From the NCBI RefSeq assembly GCF_018141545.1, contig NZ_CP064356.1, forward strand, positions 2,865,001 to 2,929,000: DNA of 64,000 nucleotides, read 5' to 3'. This DNA is from Miltoncostaea oceani. Its GTDB lineage: Bacteria > Actinomycetota > Thermoleophilia > Miltoncostaeales > Miltoncostaeaceae. Shown in pieces: positions 29,079 through 56,286 of the stretch. A program made the translations under genes and the position numbers. Each line of letters starts with the position of its first letter. Positions within the stretch are counted from its first letter, which is position 1. Under the pieces are notes generated by a model. The model searched no databases, was not told the DNA's origin, and saw nothing but the letters and a program-made list of their open reading frames with translations.

Positions 29079-29160
29079 TGCCGGAGCCGGGGGTCGAACC
29101 CGGACGCCCGAGGGCAGGGGAGTTTAAGTCCCCCGCGTCTACCGATTCCGCCACTCCGGC
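29079..29160 (-). tRNA. tRNA-Leu (anticodon TAA)
   Basis: 82 bases, class II with a long variable arm. The acceptor arms CTCCGGC (29154-29160) and GCCGGAG (29080-29086) pair over seven bases with discriminator A at 29079. The anticodon loop is CTTAAAC between GGGGA and TCCCC stems, giving TAA. The T-arm GGTTCGACCCC is present. No CCA is encoded. It lies between a GAP transporter and a small minus-strand gene. Confidence 0.93.
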
Positions 29161-29203: not shown

Positions 29204-29428
29204 TCAGCGGCCGAAGCTCGCGGCGCCGGGCGTGCGGTCCACGGCGGCGAGCCGGGTGCTCTCGACCGCGGCGGCCCAGCCCTCCGGGATGAGCGGCCAG
29301 CGCGCGAGGATCTCGGCGTGGCGCACGTGGCGCATGTTCGCGCCCGACGCGTGGATCGTGCGACGACCACCCATCACGTCGCCCGCGGCCGTGGCCGGTG
29401 ACGCCGCCTCAGTCCGTGCGATTGCCAT
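29204..29428 (-). CDS. Small protein, paralogue of 54586-54819
   Basis: 74 residues, function unknown. The C-terminal half reads RHVRHAEILARWPLIPE and continues WAAAVESTRLAAV; the same pattern (RHIRHAEILARWPVLPE, WARVIEAGRLA) occurs in a gene 25 kb away. The N-terminal parts differ except for a short R-T-I block. No signal peptide or cysteine is present. It starts 24 bases after the Ppx/GppA stop and is probably in that operon. Shared core across two unlinked loci suggests a real, selected family. Confidence 0.68.
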   Translation of the reverse strand: MAIARTEAASPATAAGDVMGGRRTIHASGANMRHVRHAEILARWPLIPEGWAAAVESTRLAAVDRTPGAASFGR

Positions 29429-29452: not shown

Positions 29453-30391
29453 TCACGATCGGAACAACCCGGATGAGGGGTTCACCGCCGCGAGGGCCAG
29501 TCCGTCGAGGATGTCCCGCTCGCTGACGGTCATCCGGTCGAGCCCCGCCACCTCCAGGACCGTCGCCGCGATGAGCGCCCCCGCGGGGATCACCTCGGCG
29601 CGCGCCGGCTCGAGGCCGGGCAGCTCCCGGCGCGCCGCGACCGTCATGCCGCAGAGCCGGCCGGTGATCCGCTCCACGGAGTCGCGGTCGAGGACGTGGC
29701 CGTGGACGGCCACCGGGTCGTACCCGCCGAGCTCGATGGCGGCGAGGGTGGTGATGGTGCCGGCCACCCCGACGACGGGGGCCGGCCCCCCGATCCGCTC
29801 GAGCGCGGCGGCGACGAGCAGGCGGGCCTCGTCGCGGAGCGCGTCGATGCCGTCCTCCCCGGGCGGGTCGCCGCGCAGGTGCAGCTCCGACTGCCGGACG
29901 GCGCCGAGCTGCAGGCTGACCCCGGCGCGGGGGCCGTCGCCGGCGCCGCGGACGAGCTCGGTGCTGGCGCCCCCGATGTCCACGACCATGATCTCCTCGT
30001 CGCCGGGGGCCCCGAGCCGCGCACCCGCGAAGGAGCACCGCGCCTCCTGGTCGCCGTCGATCACCGCGAGGACGGCGCCGGTGCGGCGCGCCACGACCTC
30101 CGCGACCTCCGCCCGGTTGGGCGCGTCGCGGACGGCGCTGGTGCCCGCCGCCACCACCCGGGCGGGCGCGAACGCCGCGATGCGCTCCCCGTAGCCGGCG
30201 AGGCAGTCGTCGAGGCGCGCGAGGGCCTCGGCCGCGACGGAGCCGTCGGCGCCGGCGCCCCGGCGCAGGGCCGTCACGGTGCTGATGCGCTCACCCTCCG
30301 GCCCGGCCGGGCCGATCCGCTCGCAGAGCAGGAGCCGGACCGAGTTCGACCCGACGTCCACGACCGCGATGCGGTCGGGAGCGGGTGTCAC
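29453..30391 (-). CDS. Exopolyphosphatase / pppGpp phosphohydrolase (Ppx/GppA)
   Basis: 312 residues. The ASKHA-fold phosphate motifs are DVGSNSVRLLL at about 11-21, GTSAVRDAPN at about 95-104, and DIGGASTELVRG at about 140-151. These proteins remove terminal phosphate from polyphosphate or pppGpp. The short length, without the C-terminal HD domain, is usual in Actinobacteria. GTG 30391 overlaps the stop of the upstream membrane gene (GTGA), so the two are coupled. Confidence 0.92.
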   Translation of the reverse strand: MTPAPDRIAVVDVGSNSVRLLLCERIGPAGPEGERISTVTALRRGAGADGSVAAEALARLDDCLAGYGERIAAFAPARVVAAGTSAVRDAPNRAEVAEVVARRTGAVLAVIDGDQEARCSFAGARLGAPGDEEIMVVDIGGASTELVRGAGDGPRAGVSLQLGAVRQSELHLRGDPPGEDGIDALRDEARLLVAAALERIGGPAPVVGVAGTITTLAAIELGGYDPVAVHGHVLDRDSVERITGRLCGMTVAARRELPGLEPARAEVIPAGALIAATVLEVAGLDRMTVSERDILDGLALAAVNPSSGLFRS

Positions 30392-30720
30392 CGCCCGATG
30401 TAGCGGAGCGGCGCCCGCAGCACCTCGGCCGCCTGGCCGGCGCTGGTGGCCAGCACCCCGAGCGCGGCGGCCCGGCGCTGGAGCGACGCGACGGCCGCGC
30501 CCATCTCGGCCTGGCGGTCCGGCAGCGCCGCGAGCGAGGCCTGCAGGCGGTCGGCCTCGGCGGTCAGCGCCGCGCCCGCCTCCGTCACGCGGGTCTGCGC
30601 GCGGCGCACGACGCGCCACAGCCGGAACCCGGCGATGCCGAGCACCGCCAGACCGGCGACGACGAGCAGGCCGAGCAGGATGGCGGACAGTCCCACCGCG
30701 TTGTCCCAGACGACGTCCAC
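30388..30720 (-). CDS. Membrane protein with coiled coil
   Basis: 110 residues. One transmembrane segment at about residues 10-33 (AILLGLLVVAGLAVLGIAGF) is followed by a long Ala-rich coiled coil (about 38-95). DUF948-like or a phage-shock-type anchor is possible, but no motif decides it. GTG 30720 follows a GATACT box by eight bases, so leaderless initiation is likely. It overlaps ppx by four bases. Confidence 0.7.
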   Translation of the reverse strand: MDVVWDNAVGLSAILLGLLVVAGLAVLGIAGFRLWRVVRRAQTRVTEAGAALTAEADRLQASLAALPDRQAEMGAAVASLQRRAAALGVLATSAGQAAEVLRAPLRYIGR

Positions 30721-30758
30721 GGGGTGCAGTATCGCACCCGGGTATGGTCCGTCCCGCC

Positions 30759-31769
30759 ATGACGGTCGCCGCGCGTCCCGACCCGCGCACACTCCCCCGC
30801 GTCGCCGACGACGCGGAGTTCGTCCCGCCCGAGGCGCTCGCGGGGCGCCCCCACGCACAGGTGGACGGCGCCCGGCTCGACGGCACGGTGCTCTCGTTGT
30901 CGCACTGGCCGGGCAGCGGCACCCCCGACGCCCTGCGGGCCGACACCAGCGCCCTGATCGTCGAGCGCTACCTCGACGCGGGCGCCGCCGGGCCCGAGGT
31001 GCGGCTCGTCAGCACGAACCACTACGACGAGGACGGGCTGCTCGCGATCTGGCTGCTGCGCGAGCGCCCGCCCGCCGGGGCGCCCGCCCGCCGCCTGGCC
31101 GTCGCCGCCGCGGAGGCCGGCGACTTCGGCACCTGGACCGACCCCGCCGCGCCGCGGGTGGCGATCGCCGCGATGGCGATGGCCGAGCGCCGCACGACGC
31201 CGTTCCCCGATGTCGGCCGCATCCTCGCCCGCGCGGGCGGGAGCGACCCGGCGGGCCTCCTGCACCAGGCGATCCTGCCGCGGGTCGCGGGCCTGCTCGC
31301 CGACCCCGACCGCTACCGGATGCTCTGGCGGCCGCGGTGGGACCGCATCGCCGCCGACGTGGCGCTGCTCGACGCCGGGGACGCCGTGATCGACGAGGTC
31401 CCCGACGCGGACCTCGCGATCCTCCGCACCCCCCGCCCCCTCGATCCGATGGCGGTGCACCCCCGCACCCGGCGCATGCGGGTGCTGACCGCGACGCCCG
31501 ACGGCGTCCTCTCCCTCGCCCACCGCTACGAGACCTGGGTCGACTACGTCAGCCGGCCGCTCGCCCCGCGGGTCGACCTGACCCCGCTCGCCGCGCGGCT
31601 GCAACGCGACGAGGCGCGCCCCGTCCGGTGGCTGTTCGAGGGGGTCGGGGCGATCACCCCGCGCCTCCTGCCCGCGGGGCCGGACGGGCGGCCCGCGCCG
31701 ACGTCGTGGGGCGCCGACGCCCTCGCCGACGCGCTCGTGCGCTTCCTCGGGTCGGCGGTGGCGGCGTGA
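30759..31769 (+). CDS. DUF6687-like protein of unknown function
   Basis: 336 residues, soluble. The pattern in the N-terminal third (LSLSHWPGSGTPDALRADTSA, then VSTNHYDEDGLLAIWLLRE) resembles the uncharacterised DUF6687 family. The NHYDEDG stretch is DHH-like and could bind metal, but I do not see a full phosphodiesterase motif set. It has a TATGGT box ten bases before the ATG, divergent from the GATACT box of the gene at 30720. Its stop overlaps the PhzF gene (GTGA). Confidence 0.7.
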   Translation: MTVAARPDPRTLPRVADDAEFVPPEALAGRPHAQVDGARLDGTVLSLSHWPGSGTPDALRADTSALIVERYLDAGAAGPEVRLVSTNHYDEDGLLAIWLLRERPPAGAPARRLAVAAAEAGDFGTWTDPAAPRVAIAAMAMAERRTTPFPDVGRILARAGGSDPAGLLHQAILPRVAGLLADPDRYRMLWRPRWDRIAADVALLDAGDAVIDEVPDADLAILRTPRPLDPMAVHPRTRRMRVLTATPDGVLSLAHRYETWVDYVSRPLAPRVDLTPLAARLQRDEARPVRWLFEGVGAITPRLLPAGPDGRPAPTSWGADALADALVRFLGSAVAA

Positions 31770-54585: not shown

Positions 54586-54819
54586 TCACCGGTCGGCCAG
54601 CCGCCCCGCCTCGATCACCCGCGCCCACTCCTCCGGGAGAACCGGCCAGCGGGCGAGGATCTCCGCGTGACGGATGTGGCGGTAGTTGCCGCCGCGGGTC
54701 ACGATCGTGCGGCCCGGGTCGCCGGGGTCCTGCTCCGCGGAGATCCCCAGGCCCATGAACGCCGCCTGGGGCGAGCCCGTCGACGTCGTCGTGCCGCGGT
54801 GCATGCCGGTGTCGGCCAC
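54586..54819 (-). CDS. Small protein, paralogue of 29204-29428
   Basis: 77 residues. The C-terminal half (RHIRHAEILARWPVLPE and WARVIEAGRLA) matches the gene at 29204 at about two of three positions; the lead regions differ. Function unknown. It is downstream of chaB on the same strand, with a 26-base gap, so it may belong to the topoisomerase IB-chaB group. ATG 54819. Confidence 0.68.
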   Translation of the reverse strand: MADTGMHRGTTTSTGSPQAAFMGLGISAEQDPGDPGRTIVTRGGNYRHIRHAEILARWPVLPEEWARVIEAGRLADR

Positions 54820-54845: not shown

Positions 54846-55238
54846 CTAGCCCTGGGCGCGGCCGATCGCGGCGGCCAGCTCGGCCTTCGTCATCCTCGAC
54901 CGGCCGCGGATGTCGAGGGCGCGGGCCCGCTCCATCAGCTGCGCCTTCGTGTTCCCCACCGCGTCCACGCCGCCGTAGGTCTCGCCGACGCCCCGCCGCC
55001 TCTCGGCGGGCGACGCCTCCGAACGCGGGTCGGAGGGGCCGTACTCGTCCTTCTCGACCCACTCGTCGCCGACCTTCTCGTGCGTGTGCTTCAACGCCGC
55101 GAACGCCGTCCGGTACGCCCGCTCGCTCTCCCCGTACTGCGCGATCGCGCCGTCCAGCGCGCCGAGCCACACCGCGCGGGCGCTCGGCGCCGACCGTGCG
55201 ATGGTCGCGGGGACGTCGCGTTCCGCCTTCGGTGCCAT
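54846..55238 (-). CDS. chaB: ChaB-domain protein with Rho_N/SAP-like tail
   Basis: 130 residues. The N-terminal part (about 8-60: PATIARSAPSARAVWLGALDGAI, through YRTAFAALKHTHEK) matches ChaB, a small cation-transport-regulator protein. The C-terminal end (KAQLMERARALDIRGRSRMTKAELAAAIGRAQ) is a Rho N-terminal/SAP-like nucleic-acid-binding helix pair. The combination is common in Actinobacteria. It starts one base after the topoisomerase IB stop. Confidence 0.85.
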   Translation of the reverse strand: MAPKAERDVPATIARSAPSARAVWLGALDGAIAQYGESERAYRTAFAALKHTHEKVGDEWVEKDEYGPSDPRSEASPAERRRGVGETYGGVDAVGNTKAQLMERARALDIRGRSRMTKAELAAAIGRAQG

Positions 55239-55239
55239 G

Positions 55240-56286
55240 TCAGCCTCCGCTCGCGCGCTCCTCGAGGCCGCGCCGCAGCAGCGCCAGCACCGCGAGCTCC
55301 TCGGCGCTGTGGCCGTTGCGCAGCTTGCGGTCGATCTCGCCCATCAGGGACGAGATGGTCCGGCCGTCGAGGAAGTGGTCGATGACCCGTGGGTCGATGT
55401 AGCTCGCCCGGCAGACCGCCGGGGTGTTGCCGAGCAGCTCCGACGCGACCCGGCAGACGCGCGTGACCGCCCGCTGGCGCTCCCGCGCGCCCTCGATGGG
55501 GCCGACCTCGTCGAGCGCCACCGCCGCCGCGACGGTGCCGGCCCAGGTGCGGAAGTCCTTCGCCGAGAAGTCCTCCCCCATCTGCTCCTTGATGTACGCG
55601 TTCACGTCCTCGGAGCGGACGTCGGCCGGGTTCCCGTCCTCGTCGAGGTAGGACAGCACCTCGTATCCCGGCAGGGCGTCCATCTCGGCGACGACCTTCG
55701 CGAGCCGGGCGTGGGTGATCTCGGCGTGGTTCGCGACACCGCCCTTGCCGACGAAGTCCAGCACGAGGGTGTCGCCGTCGATCGTCAGGTGCTTCGACCG
55801 GAGGGTCGCGAGCCCGTACGTCTTGTACCGGTTCGCGTACTGCTCGCTGCCGACCCGGATCCGGGTGCGGTCGAGGATCTGCACGGCCGCGGCGAGGGCC
55901 TTCGTGCGGTCGAGGCGCCTGCGCCGCAGCTGCGACTCGGTGGTCCGCCGCAGGTCGGGCAGCCCCTCGGCGAAGCGGAGGATGCGCTCGTACTTCTCCT
56001 GCTGGCGCTGCTCGTGCCACGCCGGGTGGTAGAGGTACTGGGTGCGGTCGGCGGCGTCGCGACCGGTCGCCTGCAGGTGACCGCGGGACGACCGGCAGAT
56101 CCACACGTCCGTCCACGCCGGCGGGATCGCGAGGGCCGCGAACCGCGCCTTCAGCCGGTCGTCGGTGACGGGCCGGCCCTCGGGGTCGTGGTAGCTCCAG
56201 CCGCGCCCCCGCCGCCGGCGCGTGTAGCCCGGTTCGCGGTCGGTGCTGTGGCGGAGGCTCGGCATCGGCGCGAGGGTTGTTCCCAC
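55240..56286 (-). CDS. DNA topoisomerase IB
   Basis: 348 residues, poxvirus/bacterial type IB topoisomerase. It relaxes supercoils through a 3'-phosphotyrosine. Catalytic residues are seen in order: Arg in RTRIRVGSEQYANRY, Lys in DFVGKGGVANH, Arg in FRTWAGT, and the nucleophile Tyr in CRASYIDPRVID. This family often sits with chaB and stress genes. ATG 56286 with no obvious Shine-Dalgarno; GTG starts inside are possible. Confidence 0.93.
   Translation of the reverse strand: MGTTLAPMPSLRHSTDREPGYTRRRRGRGWSYHDPEGRPVTDDRLKARFAALAIPPAWTDVWICRSSRGHLQATGRDAADRTQYLYHPAWHEQRQQEKYERILRFAEGLPDLRRTTESQLRRRRLDRTKALAAAVQILDRTRIRVGSEQYANRYKTYGLATLRSKHLTIDGDTLVLDFVGKGGVANHAEITHARLAKVVAEMDALPGYEVLSYLDEDGNPADVRSEDVNAYIKEQMGEDFSAKDFRTWAGTVAAAVALDEVGPIEGARERQRAVTRVCRVASELLGNTPAVCRASYIDPRVIDHFLDGRTISSLMGEIDRKLRNGHSAEELAVLALLRRGLEERASGG

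Follow-up and report, generated by a model that had tools for sequence, protein, structure and literature searches.

Genes A and B, two unlinked small genes of Miltoncostaea oceani located in the analysed window (the whole 64,000-nt stretch, contig NZ_CP064356.1, positions 2,865,001 to 2,929,000), are, as judged from sequence comparison, paralogues belonging to one small-protein family, which is undescribed and restricted to the Miltoncostaeaceae, with no convincing member elsewhere. The initial annotation had proposed two small genes with a common 35-residue C-terminal core around RHAEILARWP. Both reading frames are present on the minus strand (Table 1), and the resemblance is unambiguous: 25 of 39 residues are identical (64%; BLASTP E 1e-18), and the local alignment score of 141 compares with a maximum of 58 among 5000 shuffles, none of which was as good, ruling out chance similarity of A and B. 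The extent of the core had to be corrected, though, as the common segment comprises 39 residues and is C-terminal in B only; in A it is followed by 13 more residues that end in the conserved tail VDRTPGAASFGR.

Table 1. Features in the window (first 12 rows; window coordinates) and representatives of families E and F elsewhere in the genome.
Feature	Position	Strand	Remarks
tRNA-Leu(UAA)	29079..29160	-	directly 3' of A, gap 43 nt
Gene A	29204..29428	-	74 aa, pI 11.5; ATG start 24 nt past the ppx stop codon; orthologs in all family genera
A residues 63-74	29207..29242	-	C-terminal tail VDRTPGAASFGR, conserved in subfamily A (ortholog comparison)
A residues 23-61	29246..29362	-	segment common to B, 64% identity (pairwise alignment)
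A residues 36-45	29294..29323	-	motif RHAEILARWP
Ppx/GppA phosphatase gene	29453..30388	-	directly 5' of A; PF02541, E 1e-45
Small predicted membrane protein gene	30388-30786	-	upstream of ppx; no Pfam match
Gene B	54586..54819	-	77 aa; GTG start 26 nt past the chaB stop codon; core without tail
B residues 37-75	54595..54711	-	segment common to A (pairwise alignment)
B residues 50-59	54643..54672	-	motif RHAEILARWP
ChaB + Rho_N-like protein gene	54846..55238	-	immediately 5' of B, also in congener G003; ChaB PF06150
Bacterial topoisomerase IB gene	55240..56286	-	PF01028
Family E	L185:3942-4160 (G000:C1:2250441-2250659)	+	72-aa basic protein, 'FADDNSSYRR...RRHADLLDRYPPLF'
Family F	L240:3346-3684 (G000:C1:1870845-1871183)	+	overlaps the uvrB stop by 4 nt

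By comparison of orthologs, A and B were shown to be translated genes under purifying selection. Between congeneric orthologs, dN/dS ranged over 0.02-0.28 in A and was 0.30 in B and 0.33 in C, a third copy introduced below, and the differences between orthologs of all three genes fall mostly on third codon positions. This substitution pattern, together with conservation across genera, excludes A and B as spurious antisense reading frames, for example of the 587-aa plus-strand frame that runs over A.

Searching for the core in the genome itself and in related genera, as the initial annotation had suggested, uncovered a third clear copy, C (G000:C1:3295733-3295897), and orthologs throughout the sampled family; this excludes the situation of no other copies and no conservation in which the earlier reading would have seen mere chance. 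The family core follows the consensus RHxxxLxRWPVLxExWAxxIExxR in proteins of roughly 50-110 residues. Among 20 members from four subfamilies with unrelated flanks, the core residues R, L, R-W-P, E and W are invariant and H is nearly so; A, B and C all have R-H, L, R-W-P, E and W in place.

The 32-residue core profile matched 42 of the 42 sampled genomes of the Miltoncostaeaceae (GTDB family), with one to six matches per genome when E values up to 1 were allowed; the faintest of these matches are at chance level. In a sample of the class (399 genomes, 357 of them outside the family), eight outsiders gave weak partial matches (E 0.001-0.009, covering 12-24 of the 32 columns), and one further genome outside the family, G110, gave a marginal match (E 1.7e-4) to the longer profile A1. 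Matches in the phylum sample (396 genomes, about 385 outside the family) were confined to Miltoncostaeaceae. A pattern scan covering 84,980 prokaryote species, with one genome for each, yielded 36 loci, and those compared matched Miltoncostaeaceae loci already identified. The earlier suggestion of a lineage-specific small-protein family is thus upheld by its occurrence in all sampled family genomes, against only weak or marginal matches in the class and none outside the family in the phylum sample. As a side observation, four contigs titled 'Bifidobacterium breve' or 'Acidobacteria' (L095, L104, L116, L098) carry the family in its usual slot and correspond to contigs from genomes placed in the Miltoncostaeaceae; these are apparently mislabelled MAG records.

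Neither Pfam nor NCBIfam contained a known domain above cut-off for the family, and PHROGs and PDB sequences gave none either. A phage, plasmid or mobile origin was considered and rejected, as no relatives were found in PHROGs (best E 0.085), IMG/VR, plasmid collections (searched with A) or phage collections (searched with B). Among publications naming Miltoncostaea, no title or abstract dealt with proteins of the A/B type. Orphan-gene families of single bacterial families are likewise small, universal within their family and devoid of a database family or outside relative. The present case differs from such families in general in comprising several paralogous subfamilies that combine a common core with distinct conserved tails, and in that its minimal motif possibly also occurs in two other small proteins, E and F (see below).

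At least four subfamilies (A, B, C and D) can be distinguished, and the larger ones each have their own conserved tail. Members of subfamily A read, in most genera, '...DERRLIFAKGEN', then the core, then the tail VDRTPGAATFGR, in which D-R-T-P-G and F-G-R are invariant across 29 orthologs; some genera have a second A copy, either elsewhere (L108, L109, L124) or in tandem (L101). Subfamily B has the core without a tail and was found in two of the four sampled genomes of the genus, with B-like forms in genus g2 (L072, L144). Subfamily C is composed of 'FHTARDRxRPELLW', the core and then NPxxRDITYLHGAGR, and subfamily D of the core followed by PLTAINRxxGLPDDHGxDAV. In a tree of these short sequences, C and B were grouped with good local support (0.96, 0.92) and D with somewhat less (0.84); the tree does not settle the order of the subfamilies. 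An HxxH metal site was rejected because Phe or Tyr replaces either His in orthologs.

The AlphaFold2 models of A and B are weak as a whole (mean pLDDT 59 and 64, pTM about 0.3). In the model of B, residues 1-45 are unstructured and helices span residues 46-57 and 64-76, with block means of pLDDT 75-88 in the core; the model of A is similar, with pLDDT 75-78 in the core and lower values in most remaining parts. The core is thus predicted to consist of two short helices broken at the invariant Trp-Pro and carried on a disordered arm. Foldseek searches with the A and B models returned no match to a solved fold, a result that is uninformative at such model confidence.

A conserved hairpin built from the structural and hydrophobic residues L, W, P and W plus R-H and E, tails that differ between subfamilies and a disordered arm together resemble protein-protein adaptors. 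By this analogy, a docking or adaptor function is the best supported role, and we tentatively favor the notion that A-D are small adaptors. The helix-WP-helix element would dock in a groove of one partner, or of several related ones, common to the lineage, while the subfamily-specific tail or arm would bind a second, client-specific target; with a common core and differing tails, the paralogues would join the same hub to different clients. As B has no tail, such a second binding site would not be general. For the Arg-rich helix, binding to nucleic acid would be just as conceivable.

The neighbors named in the initial annotation, Ppx/GppA next to A and ChaB and topoisomerase IB next to B, were all confirmed by Pfam. 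The short distances from A to the ppx stop codon and from B to the chaB stop codon would fit co-transcription. The suggested link to these neighbors is weaker than it first seemed. It is the tRNA-Leu(UAA) gene that directly follows A in 34 of 34 A loci, at a gap of 5-87 nt, whereas ppx directly precedes A in 31 of the 34, the exceptions being L119, where the contig ends, and L094 and L101, two species of genus g4 in which A is kept with no ppx in the slot that separates it from the small membrane-protein gene. Retention of A in these two loci indicates that an adjacent ppx is not required by A, and a functional dependence of A on Ppx is weakened accordingly. The tandem duplication of A in L101 is found in this slot lacking ppx, and the position of the small membrane-protein gene upstream of ppx is conserved across much of the family. 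The association of B with ChaB was seen in two genomes only, the present one and congener G003. In the latter, the topoisomerase IB gene is separated from chaB-B by three genes spanning about 2.5 kb (L070:2815-3458); since B stays with chaB at this distance from the topoisomerase IB gene, chaB-B is the more stable unit. The neighborhoods of C and D differ between genera.

According to the nucleic-acid alternative, the Arg/His-rich first helix would sit on RNA or DNA, as in a ribosome or RNA polymerase accessory protein, and the hairpin would be a minimal globule, with A acting in translation or the stringent response and B near DNA topology genes. The strongly basic nature of A (pI 11.5), the conserved Arg and His in the motif, the constant proximity of tRNA-Leu and frequent proximity of ppx to A, and the location of F overlapping uvrB and of E preceding a carD-like gene (in genus g10) or adjoining mreB (in this genome and G003) would all agree with this. 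However, B and C have pI values close to neutral (6.8-6.9), the invariant W, P, E, W and L form a hydrophobic and structural set rather than a basic patch, A persists without ppx in its slot in two species, and no nucleic-acid-binding family matched above cut-off. We consider this explanation unlikely; a nucleic-acid or ribosome role is possible chiefly for the very basic A.

The nearest known parallel to the core, and a guide to the docking reading, is BcsR (YhjR; PF10945), the regulator of cellulose secretion in E. coli (PDB 6YB3 and others), which is likewise short and carries L-x-R-W-P-L-L-x-E near its C-terminus. CBP_BcsR was the best library match, found weakly with 10 of the 29 A orthologs (best E 0.0046), the NCBIfam BcsR model gave E 0.044, and hhalign assigned 82% over 13 columns, as might be expected if A-D were distant homologs of this enterobacterial cellulose-secretion subunit. 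Yet the scores lie under the curated cut-offs (13.8 versus 25.2 bits for the PF10945 gathering score, first member; 13.5 versus 46), and the alignment extends over only 13-17 residues (LxRWPLLxE), leaving the N-terminal half of BcsR without a counterpart. The layout of PF10945, an N-terminal BcsA-contacting segment plus BcsQ-binding helices, is not reproduced either, the hhalign match covering 13 C-terminal columns only. BcsR, from another phylum, lacks the R-H-x-x-x-L start and the E-x-W-A-x-x-I-E second half of the family core, and no cellulose-secretion (bcs) genes were found among the window neighbors by Pfam or recognized by eye around A-D loci elsewhere. Being limited to 13-17 residues and below curated cut-offs, the likeness is to be taken as analogy, not membership; homology seems very improbable, and the resemblance is probably convergent. 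The C-terminal domain of BcsR forms a V-shaped helix pair seated on the BcsQ NTPase dimer (PMC11470070). By analogy, A-D might dock to their partner in a similar manner.

A further observation concerns the minimal motif R[RH]xx[VIL]Lx[RK][WY], which is found at or near the C-terminus of two further small proteins, E and F, that are conserved but differ in all other respects. E was first seen as weak but repeated core-profile matches that covered half the core. It occurs in 38 of the 42 sampled Miltoncostaeaceae genomes and is absent from all 257 class genomes examined outside the family, and no Pfam family matched it above cut-off. In this genome, E ends in '...RARRHADLLDRYPPLF', directly before its stop codon, and is divergent to the adjoining mreB gene; in genus g10, it ends in RWPANW. 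The pattern RHxx[VIL]LxRWP, searched at the DNA level in the 42 genomes, gave 71 matches versus 3 for the control, nearly all of them in A-E, and led to the discovery of F in G016. With the Tyr form of the motif there were 25 matches, 17 of them in family E, versus 17 in the control. Conservation of F extends across much of the Miltoncostaeaceae; the protein has a conserved 'FRSLAAPGLDEDDLFAALxGLPG' in its N-terminal part and ERRRRHExLLxKW near its end. Its overlap with uvrB makes translational coupling likely, judging from the gene arrangement, and the coupled protein might act in DNA repair.

In hhalign comparisons, E and the core matched at 90%, E and F at 91% (23 columns) and F and the core at 72%, with every one of the 100 column-shuffled controls scoring lower in each comparison, and outside A-F the loose motif occurred in one protein among 1048 called proteins in the examined loci; as E and F were chosen by the motif, and many loci were also fetched for it, these figures overstate the case. 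The A-F genes lie beside unrelated housekeeping genes, namely ppx/tRNA-Leu, chaB, mreB or carD, and uvrB. The far-reaching interpretation would be a lineage-wide docking code, in which a C-terminal helix R[RH]xx[VIL]Lx[RK][WY], in many cases with Pro after it, in at least six kinds of small conserved protein (A-F) would be read by one hub protein, amounting to a wiring system; we regard this as improbable at present. It is also conceivable, though again rather doubtful, that the A-D family is real while its likeness to E and F reflects chance or convergent helix capping (R-R-H-x-x-L-L-x-R-W/Y), in which case there would be no common docking motif and the function of A-D would be unrelated. Indeed, the motif served to single out E and F from the complete protein sets of 42 genomes, with thousands of proteins per genome, so that part of their similarity may stem from this choice, and the match spans only 16-23 columns. 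Moreover, the C-terminus of E orthologs beyond g10/g11 reads RYPPLF or the like instead of RWP, and F orthologs often have R-R-R-E-E-I-L-R-K-W, without the His or Pro. On the other hand, the profile scores exceeded all shuffled controls in every comparison, and the mutual match of E and F extends over 23 columns even though A-D had been the starting point for finding each of them. Both proteins are also small and conserved, and both carry the motif at their C-terminal end or close to it.

These genes also represent a case for annotation, as no family model in the searched libraries covers them. If the motif were indeed a common docking tag, a single tagged 30-residue peptide could catch the partner and explain six uncharacterized proteins. 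The family has no database entry, yet it has invariant residues and several paralogues and occurs in all sampled members of a deep-branching actinobacterial lineage, which probably relies on its function.
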